From Alkalispirillum mobile (lineage in GTDB: Bacteria; Pseudomonadota; Gammaproteobacteria; Nitrococcales; Halorhodospiraceae): DNA of 64,000 nucleotides. The position numbers and the translations under genes are program-made. The DNA is taken from contig NZ_RCDA01000001.1 of assembly GCF_003664325.1 (NCBI RefSeq), positions 806,001 through 870,000 of the forward strand. The letters run 5' to 3'. The notes beneath the pieces were generated by a model, which had not been told where the DNA came from, did no database searches, and worked only from the letters and a program-made list of their open reading frames with translations. Of the stretch, positions 21,478 through 34,109 are shown in pieces. The stretch's first letter is position 1. The number at the start of each line of letters is the position of its first letter.

Positions 21478-22917
21478 TCAGCCCAGACCGTGGCGGCGTA
21501 GCTTGCGGTACAAGGTGCGCTCGCTCACGCCCAGCATCTGCGCCAGGCTGGCGCGATCGCCCTGGTGCAACGCCAGGGCCCGGCCCAAGTAGTGCGCCTC
21601 CGCCTCCTCCAGCGTCAGCAGTTCGTCCTCCGGCAGCACCGCCAGGCCCTTTTGCCCCACCACCTCCGGCGGCAGGTGCTCCACCAGGATCTCGGGGCCA
21701 TCCGCCAACAAGCTGGCCCGCTCCAGGACATTGCGTAACTCCCGGACATTGCCCGGGAAGTCATAGGCCTGCAGGCCAGCCAATGCCTCCTCGGAGAGCT
21801 GACGCCCCTGGCCATACTCCAGCCGCCGGAGGATCGCCTCACACAGGATCTGCAGGTCATCCAGCCGGTCACGCAACGGCGGCACGTTAATCGGAAAGGT
21901 GGAGATCCGGTAGTACAGGTCTTCCCGGAACTGGCCCTGCTCCACCATCCGGCGCAGATCCCGGTGGGTCGCCGCCACCAGCCGGAAATCGGCCCGTCGC
22001 GGCTCCACACTGCCCACGCGCCGGAAGCTGCGGGTCTCCAGCAGCCGCAGCAGCTTTACCTGCAACGACAGCGGAATATCCCCCACCTCGTCCAGGAACA
22101 GCGTCCCTCCCGCCGCGGCCTCCACCAGTCCGATCCGTGAGGACACGGCGCCGGTAAAGGACCCCTTCTCGTGACCGAACAGCTCGCTCTCGAACAGGGT
22201 CTCGGTAAGCCCGGAGCAGTCCACCGGCACGAAGGGCGCCTCGTGGCGGAGACTGGCGTTGTGCACGGCCCGGGCAATCAGTTCCTTGCCGGTGCCCGTC
22301 TCACCCTGGAGCAGCACGGAGACATCGCTGGGTGCGGCCCGGGTGACCAGCCCCAGCATCCGGTTGAAGGCCCGGGAGCGCCCCGTGAGCTCACTGCCAT
22401 TGGCCTGGGCACTGGCCACGGGCAGAGGCCGCAGCACCTCGATGAAGAAGCGGGTATCCCCTTCCGCCCCGGGGACAGGCCAGGTTTCCACGTCCACGTG
22501 TTCCTGCCCATGGGGGCCATGGTGAACGTGCAGCACCCGTTGTCGGCGCCGGGTATTCAGCGACGCACGCAGCGGACAGGCCTCGCCGGCCTGGTCACAG
22601 GGGACCTGGTAATGGTGGGAGACTTCGAAGCAGCGCACCCCCTCGCGCAGGGGGATATCCCCGTAGAGGCGTCGGTAGGCGCGGTTGGCGGCCAGGATGA
22701 CGTAATCCAGGCCGATAAGAATGGCCGGCTCCTCGAAGGCCTCGAGCATGGCCTGGGCGTCCGGTAACCAGCGGGCGGTCGCCCCCACCCGCGCCACTTG
22801 CTCGGGCAACACGCAGTCGCCCTGGGCGTAGTACGGGCAGGGGTCCACCTCGGCATCCCGCAGGATGCATTGATCGGGGGCGTTGCGGGCGCAGGGGCCA
22901 CGAGGATCGTCACTCAT
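21478..22917 (-). CDS. Sigma-54-dependent transcriptional activator with Cys-rich N-terminus and PAS domain
   Basis: The start at MSDDPRG gives 479 aa. The N-terminus has Cys at 9, 17, 27 and 35, then a PAS-like domain (about 50-160) with Cys96, HH101-102, Cys107 and Cys114 in the pattern SHHYQVPC...CPL. This looks like a metal or redox sensing site. The AAA+ domain has Walker A GETGTGKE, the sigma-54 contact loop GSFTGA (usually GAFTGA) and Walker [13 protein letters not shown] Fis-type helix-turn-helix ends the protein ([18 protein letters not shown]). It lies 31 nt after cioB on the same strand. A sigma-54 promoter precedes cioA, so it probably controls its own operon. Confidence 0.9.
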
Positions 22918-22948: not shown

Positions 22949-23953
22949 TCAGTGGTAGCCCTCACCCGGGCGCACCTTGCCGCGGAAGACCCAGTAGGTC
23001 CAACCGGTATACCCCATGACCACCGGCAGCACGAACAGCATGCCGATAAGCAGGAAGAGCTGGGTATCCGGGCTGGAAGCCGCATCCCAGAAGGTATGCT
23101 CCGGCGGCACCGCATAGGGCCACTTGCTGATCAGCATCCCCACGTAGAAAGAGGCGAACAGGGTCATTGCGGCGACAAAGGGCGTGCCCTCCTGACGCAG
23201 CTCCAGCGCCCGCCACAACCAGTAACTCACGACCACGGTGATCGCGGGGAACACCCACAGCCAGTGCAGGTTGTCCATCCAGCGGTTCATCACCTCTTCA
23301 TGGGCGAGCGGCGTCCACAGGCTGACGATCACGAAGAAGGCCAACACCGCGATCAGCGCCTTGCTGGCGATGCCGCGGGCCCACTCCTGAAGATCGCCCT
23401 CGGTCTTCATGATCAGCCACGCGCAACCGAGGAGCACATAACCGACCACAACACCCAGACCGGTCATCACGGTGAAGGGCGTCAACCAGTCCAGCGGACC
23501 ACCCACGTAGGTAAAGCCCTCGGTCTCGAAGCCCTGGATATACGCGCCGGCCACGGCCCCCTGCGCGAAGGCGGCCACCCCGGAGCCCAGGGTAAAGGCC
23601 CAGTTCCACAACGGCCGCGAGCGCGAACCGGCCTTGAACCGGAACTCGAAGGCCACACCCCGGAAGATGAGCCCGGCAAGCAGCAGAAACACGCCGATGT
23701 AGAGGGCCGGCAGGAAGACGGAGTAGACGAGCGGGAAGGCCCCAAGCAGGCCCGCCCCACCGAGCACCAGCCAGGTCTCGTTGCCGTCCCAGACCGGGGC
23801 CACGGAGTTCATCATGACATCCCGGTCTTCCTCGCTCCGGGCGAAGGGGAAAAGGATCCCCACGCCCAGGTCGAAGCCGTCCAGCAGGACGTACATGAAC
23901 ACGCCCAGCCCGATGATGGCGATCCAGATCAGTGTCAGATCAAGTAATTCCAT
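22949..23953 (-). CDS. cioB: Cytochrome bd-type (cyanide-insensitive) quinol oxidase subunit II
   Basis: The 334-aa protein has eight or so membrane segments and the CydB/CioB features [29 protein letters not shown] and [20 protein letters not shown]. Subunit II supports the haem-bearing subunit I in oxidising quinol and reducing O2 to water. Its Shine-Dalgarno GGGAGG overlaps the end of cioA, so the pair is translationally linked. The regulator gene follows. Length is shorter than E. coli CydB (379 aa), as in CIO-type enzymes. Confidence 0.92.
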
Positions 23954-23960
23954 TGCGCTA

Positions 23961-25373
23961 TTACCTCCCGCTGGGCTGCGGCATCTCGTCGTCGAAGGCG
24001 GAACCCGCCGCGGACATGGGGCGCTTGGGGTGCCCGCCGGTGGCCGGCGTCTCCACCTCGATGGCCTCCGGGCCCTTGCGGATCAGCCGGGTCACGTAAT
24101 AAACCCCGGCAGTGAACACCACCGCGTAGACCGTGATGTAACCGATCAGGGTGAACAGGGCCATGCCACCGGTGAGCGACGGCGAAACGGCATCCTCAAG
24201 GCGCATGATGCCGTGCACCACCCAGGGCTGGCGCCCCACCTCGGTGACGAACCAGCCGGACAGCACCGCGATGAAGGGCAGCGGAATCATCCAACTGAAC
24301 ACCCGCAGGGTGGCATTGGACTCCCACAGGGTGCCGCGCCAGCGCTTCCAGGCACCGACGAAGGCCATCAGGATCATAAGCATCCCGATACCCACCATGA
24401 TGCGGAAGGCCCAGAACACGATCGGCATGTTGGGCCTATCCTCCGCGGCCCAGTCCTTGAGCCCCTGAACTTCGCCATCCAGGGAATGGGTGAGAATCAG
24501 GCTCGCCCCGTAGGGGATGCCGATCTCCAGGAAGTTGCGCTCCTGCTCCATGCTCGGGATGGCGAACAGCAGCAACGGCGCGCCCTCCTGGGTCTCCCAG
24601 ACCCCCTCCATCGCCGCCACCTTCTCCGGCTGATGCTCGAAGGTGTTCAGGCCGTGGATGTCGCCCACCACCAGCTGCGCGGGTGCGACGATGGCCAGCA
24701 GCACCACCGTCATGCCCAACGCCTTGCGGGACTCCACCACCGCCCGGTCACGCAGCAGGTACCAGGCGCTGACGCCCGCCACCACGAACCCGGCGGTCAG
24801 GAAGGAGGCCAGGGCCATGTGGAAGAAACGCGGCCAGAAGGAAGGATTGAAGATCGCCTCCATCCAGGACGTCACGAAGAACACCCCGTCCCGCAGCTCG
24901 GTACCGGCCGGGGTCTGCATCCAGCTATTGGCAGAGAGGATCCAGAAAGAGGAGATGAACGTCCCGATGGCCACCATGCAGGCCGCGAACAGGTGCGTGC
25001 CCCGGGGCACCTTGTTCCGCCCGAAGAGCAGAATGCCCAGGAACACCGCCTCGAGGAAGAAGGCCGTGATTACCTCATAGCTGAGAATCGGGCCGAGGAA
25101 GTTCGCCGAGGCGTAAGAGAAGTCACTCCAGTTGGTCCCGAACTGGAACGACATGACAATGCCGGACACCACGCCCATGCCGAAGACCACGGCAAAGACC
25201 TGGGTCCAGAACTTGGCGAGGCGCTCGTACACCGGGTTGCCGGTGCGGTAAAGCAGCGCCTCCAGGGTGGCAATGTAGGACGCCAACCCGATGGTAAAGA
25301 CCGGGAATATGGCATGGAACGACACCACGAACCCGAACTGTAGTCGCGAGAGAAAAACCGGATCCAGCTCCAT
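23961..25373 (-). CDS. cioA: Cytochrome bd-type (cyanide-insensitive) quinol oxidase subunit I
   Basis: The start ATG has GGAGG 7 nt upstream and gives 470 aa; a longer frame to 25484 is not needed. Family marks are RLQFGFVVSFHAIFP near residue 9 (haem ligand His), the helix around SFQFGTNW, the haem-ligand His in FFHMALASFL, and GWFVTEVGRQPW near 390. The Q-loop segment (LNTFEHQPEKVAAMEG) keeps the quinol-site Lys and Glu but lacks the long insertion of E. coli CydA, so it belongs to the short-Q-loop CIO group. It is a terminal oxidase of the inner membrane. A sigma-54-type promoter and upstream dyad precede it. Confidence 0.92.
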   Translation of the reverse strand: MELDPVFLSRLQFGFVVSFHAIFPVFTIGLASYIATLEALLYRTGNPVYERLAKFWTQVFAVVFGMGVVSGIVMSFQFGTNWSDFSYASANFLGPILSYEVITAFFLEAVFLGILLFGRNKVPRGTHLFAACMVAIGTFISSFWILSANSWMQTPAGTELRDGVFFVTSWMEAIFNPSFWPRFFHMALASFLTAGFVVAGVSAWYLLRDRAVVESRKALGMTVVLLAIVAPAQLVVGDIHGLNTFEHQPEKVAAMEGVWETQEGAPLLLFAIPSMEQERNFLEIGIPYGASLILTHSLDGEVQGLKDWAAEDRPNMPIVFWAFRIMVGIGMLMILMAFVGAWKRWRGTLWESNATLRVFSWMIPLPFIAVLSGWFVTEVGRQPWVVHGIMRLEDAVSPSLTGGMALFTLIGYITVYAVVFTAGVYYVTRLIRKGPEAIEVETPATGGHPKRPMSAAGSAFDDEMPQPSGR

Positions 25374-25429
25374 TATCAACCTCCGTTGCAACACTGCGAC
25401 GCTGCAGCGAGCTGTTCGTACGCGTCGGT

Positions 25430-25445
25430 AGCAAGCCGTATGCCA
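25430..25445 (-). promoter_or_regulatory. Sigma-54 (-24/-12) promoter of cioAB
   Basis: On the minus strand the sequence is TGGCATACGGCTTGCT. The consensus is TGGCAYR-N4-TTGCW, so TGGCA, the YR pair, the spacing and TTGCT all fit; GG and GC are exactly 10 nt apart. It lies about 57 bp upstream of the cioA start. The same operon encodes a sigma-54 activator. Confidence 0.75.
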
Positions 25446-25553
25446 CGGTGCACCACTTCGATGCGACGTCCCTTTTTCCTTCACCGGATCATGGGCTTAC
25501 ACATAGATATGGCACTCGGCCCCGTCACATCACCGGATCACCGACGCGGCATA

Positions 25554-25582
25554 TGACAGACACGGCTGTCACCTGACTGTCA
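25554..25582. promoter_or_regulatory. Candidate enhancer site: TGACAG-N6-CTGTCA plus a third CTGTCA
   Basis: TGACAG (25554-25559) and CTGTCA (25566-25571) form a perfect dyad; a second CTGTCA follows at 25577-25582, 11 bp after the first. They lie about 110-140 bp upstream of the -24/-12 element, the usual distance for enhancer sites of sigma-54 activators. The operon's own Fis-type regulator is the natural candidate to bind. Confidence 0.55.
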
Positions 25583-25707
25583 TTTTTGGCAGCGCTTCCC
25601 GGCCAGTGATCTCTCGGTTGCGCGTCGCTAACTTACCGACCACGCTACATATCATAGATCATGGCCCCACCCGCTTTGCTCCACCCTGCGACAATCGGCC
25701 GCGGAAT

Positions 25708-25727: not shown

Positions 25728-25801
25728 CCCGACCATTCCACTCTGGCGTGCAGCTTGCAAAGCAAACCGGGACTTGCGGATCAACCAAGGAGTGCCCACA
25801 G

Positions 25802-26245
25802 ATGGAACAACAGACCGCCATCCTGCGCATGCTCATGCGCAACAGCCGGATGTCGTACGCCGAGGTGGCCAGGGAGCTGGGCTGCTCCCGCGCCCACGCC
25901 CGCGAGCAGGTGCAACGTCTGGTTGAGGATGGGGTGATCGAGCAATTCACCGTGGTGCTGAACCCGGACAAGCTCGGGCGCACGGTATCCGCCTTCCTGG
26001 ACGTGGAGGTGGCGCCGAAGGGGCTGGAGGCGGCCGCGGAGGAACTGGCCGCCACCGACGAGGTGGTCAGCCTTTACATCATGAGCGACATGCGCAGCCT
26101 GCACATCCACACCCTGACGGCGGACAACGCCGGACTGGACCGCTTCATCCGCGAGCACCTGCTTGGTCGCGACCACATTGTCCGACTGGACTGCAAGCTG
26201 CTGATGGAACGGGTGAAGCACCGGCGCGGCGGGCCCAGGCTGTAG
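25802..26245 (+). CDS. Lrp/AsnC-family transcriptional regulator
   Basis: The ATG at 25802, with AAGGAG about 10 nt upstream, gives 147 aa, the normal family length; a longer frame begins 47 codons earlier without a ribosome site. The N-terminal helix-turn-helix reads AEVARELGCSRAHAREQVQR. The C-terminal RAM domain (about 60-140) binds small ligands, usually amino acids. It diverges from cioA and converges with the TauE gene. The target is unknown; a role in the neighbouring TRAP/GGT/TauE operon or autoregulation is possible. Confidence 0.88.
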   Translation: MEQQTAILRMLMRNSRMSYAEVARELGCSRAHAREQVQRLVEDGVIEQFTVVLNPDKLGRTVSAFLDVEVAPKGLEAAAEELAATDEVVSLYIMSDMRSLHIHTLTADNAGLDRFIREHLLGRDHIVRLDCKLLMERVKHRRGGPRL

Positions 26246-31850: not shown

Positions 31851-32252
31851 TGGCTTTTCTCCTGCAGAGATCCGATAGTCCGCACGACCGGGGTCGCGCT
31901 TGGAGATACGGTCAGCAAGAGCCGGGCCAAACCCCGGAAAAACGACATAGGCTATTGTTATAAAAAGCGAAAAAACATCAGAACCATCACCCACAAGCGC
32001 CCCCGCTCTTGCACCAGCCCGAGGCCCGGCACCCGGTCAGCCGTTGGCCGGAACGGGGGGCTCAGACGTCGCTGGGCACCATTCCGTGCAGCACCTCACC
32101 CTTGGCCGATACAAATGGTCAGTCCGCCACGTCATGTGGTTGACAACCGGTCGCAATGCGCCGCATCGGCGCGCCCGCACCTTTTTGGTGCGCCCGAAAC
32201 CGCTGCCATCGTGCTACGCTGCTGCCGGTTACACGCACGGGAGGAACCACCG
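31851..32252. other. Divergent region between the TRAP operon and ttrS
   Basis: On the minus strand, TATAAC (31957-31962) lies in an AT-rich stretch about 110 bp before dctP and may be its -10; the -35 is poor. On the plus strand a perfect TTGACA occurs at 32140-32145 but no good -10 follows at 16-18 bp. GGGAGGA at 32239-32245 is the ribosome site of ttrS. No gene is seen. Confidence 0.4.
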
Positions 32253-34109
32253 CTGAGAGCCCTCACCCTGGCCATTGCCCTGCTCCCGCTGCTCTGTGCC
32301 CTGCCCCCGGCAGCGGGCGGCCCGGACACCGGCGCTGGCGGCCTACCCACCGCGGCCGCGCCCACCACCCCGGCGAACGCCCAGCCCCTCCGGATCGGTG
32401 TACTCGCCTGGCGCGGGTCTGAGCGCGCCCTCTCGAGCTGGATGCCCACCGCCGAACACCTGCGTGAACGCCTGCCCGACCATGCGATCCGCCTGGTCCC
32501 CCTGGGGCTCGAGGAGATGGAAACGGCCGTCGCCAGCGGCGAACTGGACTTTCTCATCACCAACCCCGGGCACTACGTTCACCTGGAGAACACCCACGGC
32601 GTCGGGCGCATCGCCACCCTGGAGACCCACACACTGCAGACGCCCAGCCAGGCCCTGGGCTCCGTGGTGATCGCCCGGGCGGACCGTGATGACCTGCAGG
32701 CGCTCAGTGACCTGGCCGGCCAACGGCTCCTGGCCGTCTCCCCCGAGGCCTTCGGCGGCTTCCAGATCATCCAGGACGAGTTGCGCCGGGTGGGCATCCA
32801 ACCGCGGCGCGATCTGCAGGAGTTGCGCTACACCGGCTTTCCCATGGACCAGATCGTCGACCAGGTGCGGGTCGGGGCGGCAGACGCCGGTATCATCCGA
32901 AGCTGCCTGCTGGAAAGCCTGGTGGCGGAGGGCCTGGTTGAGCCGGAGCAGTTCCGGGTGGTGGGGGAGCGCGCCGAGCCGGGCTTCCCCTGCCGGCTGT
33001 CGAGCCGGCTCTACCCCGATTGGCCCTTCGCCCGCCTGGCCCATACCGATCGTGACCTGGCGCGGCGCGTGGCCATCGCGCTCATGGAGATGGCACCGCC
33101 CGAAGACAGCGAGGCCCTGGGCTGGACGGTGCCGCTCTCCTACCAACCGGTCAACGAGCTGTTTGAGCGCTTGCGCATCGGCCCCTACGCCGACTTTCCA
33201 GAGAACCCGCTGGCGGAACTGCTCTACCGCTACCGCTGGCCCCTGCTGGCGGGCCTGCTGGTGATGCTGATCGGCTTCGGCCACCACGTGCGGGCGGAAT
33301 ACCTGATCCGGCAACGCACTCAGGCGCTGCACGAGACCATGCGCCAGCGCGAGGCCGCCGAGGAGGCCGCCCGCCACCGCCAGGAAGAGCTGGCCCACGT
33401 GGCGCGCATCAGTACCATGGGGGAGCTGGCGGCGGGCCTGGCGCACGAGCTCAACCAACCCCTCGCTGCCATCGTCAACTACGCCAACGGCTGCCGCCGC
33501 TACCTGGAGCCCATGGACGAGCGGCAGGTACCGCAGAAGGCCCGGCTACTAGAGGCCACAAGGCATATCGCCGAGCACGGTGGGCAGGCGGCGGAGGTCA
33601 TCCGCAACCTGCGCGCCTTCCTGCGCAAGGAACCGGGCGAGTTCCGGCCAGTGGATGTCAACCAGATCATCGATGAGGCGCTGGGCTTCATGGCGGTCGC
33701 CCTGCGGCGGGCGGAGACCCGGGTGGAATGCCGACTGGGCACGGGCCTGCCGCCGGTACGGGGCAATTCGGTGCAGCTGGTCCAGGTGCTGCTGAACCTC
33801 CTGAGCAACGCCCTGGAGTCCCAGGCCGAATTGCCCGCAACAGCGCGTTTCATCCATCTTTCCAGCGAACGTGCCGGCGATCGGGTGCGCATCACCGTGG
33901 CCGACCCCGGCGAGGGCATGGCCGACGCCGTCCGTGCCCGCGCCTTCGAGCCCTTCTTCACTACCAAGGACCGGGGCATGGGGCTCGGGCTCTCCCTCAG
34001 CCACTCGCTGGTACAGGAGCACGGCGGGCGGCTGAGCCTGCGCCCCCGCAAGTCTGGGGGTACACTGGCCACCATCGAACTGCCGCTGCAGGAGGAGACC
34101 GACGCATGA
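32253..34109 (+). CDS. ttrS: Tetrathionate-sensing histidine kinase TtrS
   Basis: The protein joins a signal peptide (ALTLAIALLPLLCALPPAAG), a periplasmic PhnD-like binding domain (about residues 40-300, LRIGVLAWRG, DFLITNPGHYV), a membrane helix (LLAGLLVMLIGFGHHV) and a FixL-like kinase. The H-box is LAHELNQPLAAIVNY, then N-box LLNLLSNALE and G-boxes DPGEGM and MGLGLSLSHSLVQ. The binding domain fused to a kinase is typical of TtrS, which detects tetrathionate and phosphorylates TtrR. The best ribosome site (GGGAGGA) is 7 nt before a CTG at 32253, giving 618 aa. A GTG at 32211 is the alternative start. It overlaps ttrR by 4 nt (ATGA). Confidence 0.88.
   Translation: MRALTLAIALLPLLCALPPAAGGPDTGAGGLPTAAAPTTPANAQPLRIGVLAWRGSERALSSWMPTAEHLRERLPDHAIRLVPLGLEEMETAVASGELDFLITNPGHYVHLENTHGVGRIATLETHTLQTPSQALGSVVIARADRDDLQALSDLAGQRLLAVSPEAFGGFQIIQDELRRVGIQPRRDLQELRYTGFPMDQIVDQVRVGAADAGIIRSCLLESLVAEGLVEPEQFRVVGERAEPGFPCRLSSRLYPDWPFARLAHTDRDLARRVAIALMEMAPPEDSEALGWTVPLSYQPVNELFERLRIGPYADFPENPLAELLYRYRWPLLAGLLVMLIGFGHHVRAEYLIRQRTQALHETMRQREAAEEAARHRQEELAHVARISTMGELAAGLAHELNQPLAAIVNYANGCRRYLEPMDERQVPQKARLLEATRHIAEHGGQAAEVIRNLRAFLRKEPGEFRPVDVNQIIDEALGFMAVALRRAETRVECRLGTGLPPVRGNSVQLVQVLLNLLSNALESQAELPATARFIHLSSERAGDRVRITVADPGEGMADAVRARAFEPFFTTKDRGMGLGLSLSHSLVQEHGGRLSLRPRKSGGTLATIELPLQEETDA

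Follow-up and report, generated by a model that had tools for sequence, protein, structure and literature searches.

The 64,000 nucleotides of the Alkalispirillum mobile genome analysed here (the window) contain a bd oxidase operon, cioA-cioB-fisR, whose third gene encodes a sigma-54 activator of the FisR type. From the sequence, we consider it quite likely that sulfide-derived persulfides activate this FisR, and that FisR and RpoN would in turn induce an oxidase of a sulfide-resistant class and, by gene order, more FisR. The genes, the family of the regulator, the conserved operator and promoter and the repeated linkage of regulator and oxidase genes were all obtained by computation. Beyond the window, FisR sensing sulfane sulfur via TGTCA-N4-TGACA is probably a widespread, repeatedly evolved switch for sulfide-resistant bd oxidases, both of the short CIO-like and of the long CydA form; the window would hold a stripped-down version of it, with the oxidase as the main target and fisR in its operon. 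If this is true, a dedicated terminal oxidase comes with the sulfide-detoxification programme.

The cio-fisR locus and its regulator

On the minus strand the genes follow one another in the order cioA, cioB, fisR, and fisR, with its start methionine taken at 22917, lies 31 nt past the cioB stop (Table 1), which bears out the original prediction that the operon encodes a sigma-54 activator. Both subunits of the oxidase score above the Pfam cut-off. CioA, a protein of 470 aa, gives a single continuous match to the chains 5doq and 7nkz, while the longer chains from E. coli (7ose and 6rko) are matched in two stretches; the oxidase may be of the short, CIO-like form. The genome contains an rpoN gene and also encodes domains of flavocytochrome c sulfide dehydrogenase (FCSD): FCSD_central scores 172 bits and FCSD-flav_bind 99. 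No SQR or PDO gene was found beside the locus, where the neighbours are cioAB and lrp, and a single SQR-type query against the genome matched the FCSD gene only.

The fisR product contains the PAS_4, Sigma54_activat and HTH_8 domains, all above cut-off. The whole regulator has 17 matches in the genome, through the shared AAA+ part, versus one for the sensor domain, and a sensor-domain match occurs in 81 of 369 genomes drawn from the class. Solved structures gave weak PAS matches to this domain (best E 0.007). Conservation of the cysteine triad was read from an alignment of 42 rows, comprising the window, locus L124 and 40 better-scoring loci of the class (Table 1). In the Cupriavidus metallidurans relative (L212), which is divergent from PDO-like and SQR-like genes, the triad occupies residues 53, 64 and 71, with the same spacing, and we take these residues to be the published FisR cysteine numbers. 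In a 118-row tree, the window regulator falls with the C. metallidurans protein in a group of 101 rows (support 98), separate from four paralogues of its own genome and from a second branch of 13 rows. We file the window protein as FisR-type because its domains, its cysteine spacing and its C. metallidurans relative match published FisR, and the family points to sulfane sulfur, published as the FisR signal, as the predicted signal. Excerpts of the literature describe FisR as a sulfide-inducible sigma-54 activator (PMC7315123) in which disulfide or tetrasulfide links form among three conserved cysteines (PMC9774590). The triad does not by itself define the sulfide response, since FisR of Acinetobacter baumannii lacks the three conserved cysteines and still responds to sulfide (excerpt of PMC7315123).

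Near its start the window protein also carries a stretch of four cysteines, C-x7-C-x9-C-x7-C (22813-22893, minus strand), possibly an added metal or redox site; among 117 FisR-like proteins, some of them cut by contig ends, the pattern occurs in one, that of the window. A second FisR-like branch (L068-L070, L072-L078, L080 and L082) mostly has an ERTLYRYI-like recognition helix, not ERTLYRKL, and its operator may differ.

Table 1. Features of the cio-fisR locus; positions are those of the window.
Feature	Position	Strand	Basis or remark
cioA, bd oxidase subunit I	23961..25373	-	PF01654, 555 bits; ATG at 25373
cioB, bd oxidase subunit II	22949..23953	-	PF02322, 332 bits; TIGR00203 above cut-off
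fisR-like sigma-54 activator, 479 aa, operon gene 3	21478..22917	-	Pfam domains and tree; 53% identity (residues 57-479) to C. metallidurans relative
Cysteine triad codons C96, C107, C114 (C-x10-C-x6-C) in sensor domain	22576..22632	-	All three in 42/42 aligned rows
Lrp/AsnC-family gene (lrp), 147 aa, divergent neighbour	25802..26245	+	PF01037, PF13404
Predicted sigma-54 promoter of cioA, TGGCATACGGCTTGCT	25430..25445	-	Exact TGGCAYR-N4-TTGCW
Divergent sigma-54 site, TGGCGTGCAGCTTGCA	25744..25759	+	One mismatch; ends 42 nt before lrp ATG; absent from the original prediction
Predicted FisR operator, TGTCATTTTTGGCA	25578..25591		One mismatch to TGTCA-N4-TGACA; some 150 bp upstream of the -12 element; likewise absent from the original prediction
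Possible degenerate second operators, AGACACGGCTGTCA (25558-25571; 20 bp off, 3 mismatches) or CGCGGCATATGACA (25545-25558; 33 bp off, 4 mismatches)	25545..25571		Weak in the window

Sigma-54 promoters and a conserved operator

The sigma-54 element that had been predicted ahead of cioA proves to be an exact match to the consensus, with the first base of TGGCATACGGCTTGCT 72 nt ahead of the cioA ATG, and transcription of cioA would be expected to start near 25420. Exact TGGCAYR-N4-TTGCW occurs at six sites in the 2.95 Mb genome and the reversed pattern at none. At up to two mismatches the window holds 19 sites against 27.6 in shuffles, i.e. no excess, so that the weight of the cioA site is carried solely by its exact match and its position; it has the GG-N10-GC core with near-consensus flanks and lies at a fitting distance from the gene. 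The divergent site facing lrp shares 13 of 16 bases, compared by eye, with the divergent site of the Thioalkalivibrio locus L196. Between cioA and lrp a simple scan, which is crude and covers part of the promoter types, found no sigma-70-like promoter.

Further along the window, a one-mismatch sigma-54 site (31914-31929, minus strand) lies near the start of the TRAP transporter gene dctP, and the loci L224-L230 each have a sigma-54 site at one mismatch or fewer just beyond their dctP match; these sites suggest a sigma-54-controlled TRAP operon. Beside this TRAP/ggt/tauE block lies a gene for a sensor kinase with a phosphonate-binding-like periplasmic domain (32115-34109, plus strand), a make-up known from tetrathionate sensors.

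The operator motif was sought among palindromes in the regulator upstream regions of the 42 discovery loci and validated on 73 held-out regions. The latter derive from a search of named genomes with the sensor-domain alignment, which confirmed at least 587 places; the best 80 were taken for neighbour counts, and seven of these, none with a bd gene, repeat discovery loci. TGTCA-N4-TGACA with at most one mismatch was found in 19 of the 42 discovery regions, the window counted, against 1 for the reversed motif and 0.4 in shuffles, gaps of 0 and 6 being likewise raised in this set (9/42 and 7/42). It was then found in 40 of the 73 held-out regions, which include close relatives (nine Marinomonas, three Zhongshania) and are not independent, against 2 for the reversed motif and, on average, 1.7 in dinucleotide shuffles; 33 of the 73 have no operator at one mismatch. 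The remaining twelve gaps between 0 and 12 gave held-out counts of 1 to 11, among which those for gaps 7 and 8 (11 and 10) exceed the shuffles and that for gap 0 does not. Another palindrome, CCGGC-N5-GCCGG, was a further operator candidate, seen in five discovery regions. The FisR upstream regions also contain sigma-54 sites at one mismatch or fewer that read away from FisR (21/41 discovery, 51/73 held-out; shuffled means 0.6 and 0.8), while sites reading toward FisR occur in 0/41 and 2/73.

In the window, the centre of the predicted operator lies 152 bp from the -12 element, the median over 41 regions with both elements being 130 bp. Some relatives have a second operator copy, usually set off by 21-22 bp or by about 29-33 bp, distances close to two or three turns of the helix. 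Genome-wide, the relaxed pattern TGTCANNNNTGRCA matches exactly at four places. The other three lie within predicted ORFs and their 3-kb loci hold no sigma-54 site at one mismatch or fewer, and we therefore propose no wider FisR regulon in this genome. At one mismatch TGTCANNNNTGRCA is non-specific, with 152 genome matches on both strands against 89 for the reversed pattern, so that the credibility of the window operator comes only from its place and its conservation.

Recurrent linkage of fisR to bd oxidase genes

Among the best 80 of the at least 587 places, the fetched flanks contain an SQR-like gene at 48, a PDO-like gene at 41, a SulP permease gene at 33 and a bd subunit I gene at 28, and many relatives are without an SQR-like gene, a PDO-like gene or both within these flanks. 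Gene names were given by profile. The SQR queries hit Pyr_redox_2 and, with scores under the cut-off, type III SQR. For PDO, one query reached 361 bits against the dioxygenase part of Blh, less than the whole-protein cut-off requires, and the short L054-type query found hardly any support among the profiles. A bd oxidase gene is linked to the regulator at 38 of 114 loci (28/73 held-out, 9/40 discovery and L124), which are the best-scoring ones and thus an unfair sample of the family; this may be an undercount, some unlabelled rows being on short contigs. A sigma-54 site at one mismatch or fewer lies within 450 bp of 21 of these 38 bd genes and an operator within the same distance of 13, some of the genes sitting within longer operons. 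On the 118-row tree the bd label changes 19 times, 8 changes being forced by well-supported branches, against 32.9 with shuffled labels, which suggests that the wiring of FisR to bd oxidases arose more than once among these relatives. Terminal oxidases are classically controlled by FNR or ArcA, and against that background the original description of the circuit as unusual may hold; among best-scoring FisR loci a linked bd oxidase is common.

Three individual records are worth reporting. On a Pseudoalteromonas xiamenensis plasmid (L213), the FisR-like gene is divergent from a cyd operon with an operator-like TGTCATAAGTGGCA and a one-mismatch sigma-54 site, the cydA and cydB matches falling within one annotated CDS. 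A record titled as a Klebsiella pneumoniae MAG (L186) has a FisR that groups with those of unclassified Gammaproteobacteria MAGs and is probably a mislabelled bin. In an Opitutaceae (Verrucomicrobiota) MAG (L178), FisR accompanies PDO-like, SQR-like and bd genes and groups with Porticoccaceae, a placement that reflects transfer or misbinning.

Of the 54 genomes of the window's order, 47 have CioA matches, at 63 places of which some are partial, and three have the FisR sensor domain, one of them marginally. The same locus was not found in relatives of the family or order; among 11 other family genomes, one has a marginal sensor-domain match (E 9e-4) and ten have none. Besides L124, 40 cioA copies unlinked to FisR were fetched, of which 39 remained once L086 (less than 300 bp upstream) was dropped; one of the 39, L122, comes from a genome (G372) with FisR elsewhere. 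None of these 39 upstream regions contains a sigma-54 site or an operator at one mismatch or fewer, and three have a sigma-54 site at two mismatches. The FisR gene of G372 (L124), the other clear one in the order, is divergent from a long-form bd gene; the sigma-54 site there is exact and the operator has one mismatch.

Ten of the best 80 loci are titled Thioalkalivibrio, and the four that are bd-linked (Thioalkalivibrio sp. ALE31, L196; ALE14, L200; ALJ24, L185; ALJT, L174) resemble the window in their gene order, cioA-cioB-fisR, and in their divergent sigma-54 sites with operator-like sites between. Their CioA proteins are 69.5-69.8% identical to that of the window. Their cioA genes are preceded, 68-74 nt ahead of the ATG (72 nt in the window), by a one-mismatch sigma-54 site, and operator-like sites with 1-2 mismatches lie 172-205 nt ahead of that ATG. 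A further sigma-54 site, with 1-2 mismatches, points the other way, to an SQR-like gene. The four loci differ from the window in that the divergent gene is SQR-like in place of lrp, in that the operators are nearer TGCCA-N4-TGGCA, and in that their CioA lies on another branch. The window FisR is sister to the four Thioalkalivibrio FisRs (support 97), whereas the window CioA groups with those of order relatives without FisR (99, FastTree); because the two trees disagree, the cio-fisR operon is not one inherited unit. The prediction that the activator of the operon controls cioA through sigma-54 is well supported by these comparisons: the FisR-unlinked cioA genes lack the sites, and the four loci repeat the layout.

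A search for lrp gave no match in 121 FisR loci or in the 40 order cioA loci. The relatives of lrp adjoin tauE/ggt (L222 and L223) or dctP (L224-L230), and the loci of the two nearest, L222 and L223 (73 and 69% identity), hold no sigma-54 site at one mismatch or fewer. Judged by these comparisons, lrp is part of a resident block. A simple reading would be that fisR and the FisR promoter module arrived beside this block, with lrp acquiring the divergent promoter which in Thioalkalivibrio faces the SQR-like gene.

Alternative readings and the proposed circuit

The original prediction placed the enhancer at a TGACAG-N6-CTGTCA dyad and left the signal of the regulator unspecified. This dyad, TGACAGACACGGCTGTCA, is present at 25554-25571 as a perfect palindrome that occurs nowhere else in the genome in exact form. 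Both of its halves are similar to FisR half-sites, and its core, TGACA-N8-TGTCA, is somewhat raised at one mismatch in the held-out regions (14 against 3 reversed), so that half-sites recur. The six-base dyad is however not conserved: the 73 held-out regulator upstream regions have 0 exact copies and 1 at one mismatch (reversed 1), and the counts at two and three mismatches are 13 against 10 and 34 against 36 for the reversed pattern. The suggested search at cio loci of relatives was equally negative, with no copy at one mismatch or fewer upstream of the fetched order cioA genes, and by simple arithmetic chance alone would yield a perfect dyad of 6+6 bases, with sequence and spacing left free, about once per 430 bp. 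TGACAG-N6-CTGTCA is thus ruled out as a conserved enhancer, and we regard the dyad-centred reading as most improbable: the strongly conserved spacing is N4, and it is found just past the dyad, with which it has half-sites in common. What stands is that the dyad is part of the enhancer region, where both second-copy candidates (20 and 33 bp) overlap it.

It also seems very unlikely that the sigma-54 promoter is a relic or of minor use, carried in with fisR while cio is transcribed mainly from another, oxygen-controlled promoter. Such a history would suit the discordant FisR and CioA trees and the lack of one-mismatch sigma-54 sites in 39/39 FisR-unlinked order cioA upstream regions, but the crude scan, of part of the promoter types, revealed no sigma-70-like promoter between the genes, and neither the exact sigma-54 consensus nor the near-consensus operator has decayed, as would be predicted under selection. 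A changed signal has more to recommend it: the same FisR/RpoN circuit might respond to another oxidase poison or redox state (cyanide, nitric oxide, oxygen) via the PAS domain or the N-terminal four-cysteine stretch. The usual SQR/PDO neighbours are absent at the locus, the four-cysteine pattern is peculiar to the window protein among the 117 compared (some cut by contig ends) and, in Chromobacterium, cioRAB was induced by cyanide alone of five compounds, sulfide not being among the names given in the excerpt of PMC11837568. Against this, (i) the cysteine triad is exactly kept, (ii) the sister Thioalkalivibrio FisRs lie beside an SQR-like gene and cioAB and (iii) the genome encodes FCSD, and we consider a changed signal unlikely.

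We thus favour a sulfide-responsive circuit, whose signal, binding, transcription and feedback we infer from the sequences. Sulfide oxidation, at least via flavocytochrome c sulfide dehydrogenase, would produce persulfides and polysulfides, and these may cross-link the three sensor cysteines of the PAS-type domain or modify them. Activated FisR would then bind TGTCATTTTTGGCA at 25578-25591, possibly together with the weaker site 20 or 33 bp away, hydrolyse ATP and open RpoN-polymerase at 25430-25445(-). The product would be cioAB, of an oxidase class resistant to sulfide and cyanide, and bd oxidases are indeed reported as sulfide-resistant (PMC8148161, in excerpt). With fisR in third place in the operon, more FisR would be made as well, and the same bound FisR could reach the second sigma-54 site, at 25744-25759(+), which is directed at lrp. 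The positive feedback of the original prediction is therefore plausible by gene order, here and in the four Thioalkalivibrio loci; across the family, however, upstream sigma-54 sites rarely point toward the regulator (0/41 and 2/73).

Earlier work has described FisR itself, the control of sulfide genes through sigma-54 and the induction of bd oxidases by sulfide, and excerpts of PMC7315123 and PMC8148161 report that sulfide induces bd oxidases in several bacteria and that bd oxidases resist sulfide. The titles and abstract starts of open-licence PMC articles yielded neither FisR tied to a cio or cyd promoter nor a TGTCA-N4-TGACA operator; relative to these, the direct wiring of FisR to cio/cyd promoters, the recurrence of this wiring and the operator are new, with the qualification that Li et al. 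2017 may give a binding site. With a specific activator, operator and promoter beside a bd oxidase (38/114 best-scoring loci, 8 forced tree changes), the link between sulfide and bd oxidases becomes directly testable, and the operator motif can be used to find FisR targets elsewhere.

Three described systems come close to the window. FisR of Cupriavidus pinatubonensis JMP134, as presented by papers citing Li et al. 2017, is likewise a sigma-54 activator with three conserved sensor cysteines; its known targets are sulfide-oxidation genes, whereas the target in the window would be a bd oxidase, with fisR inside the operon. In A. baumannii, FisR is likewise a sigma-54 activator of the sulfide response, which drives pdo1-sqr-tauE-hsd and in which the regulatory cysteines are not conserved; cydAB is sulfide-induced there, and the excerpt of PMC7315123 names no regulator linking sulfide to cydAB and makes no assignment to FisR. 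Finally, excerpts of PMC11837568 describe in Chromobacterium violaceum a short-form bd oxidase that likewise has a regulator in its operon, cioRAB, and that protects against sulfide and cyanide: CioR is a MarR-type repressor encoded by the first gene, whereas the window regulator is a sigma-54 activator encoded by the third.
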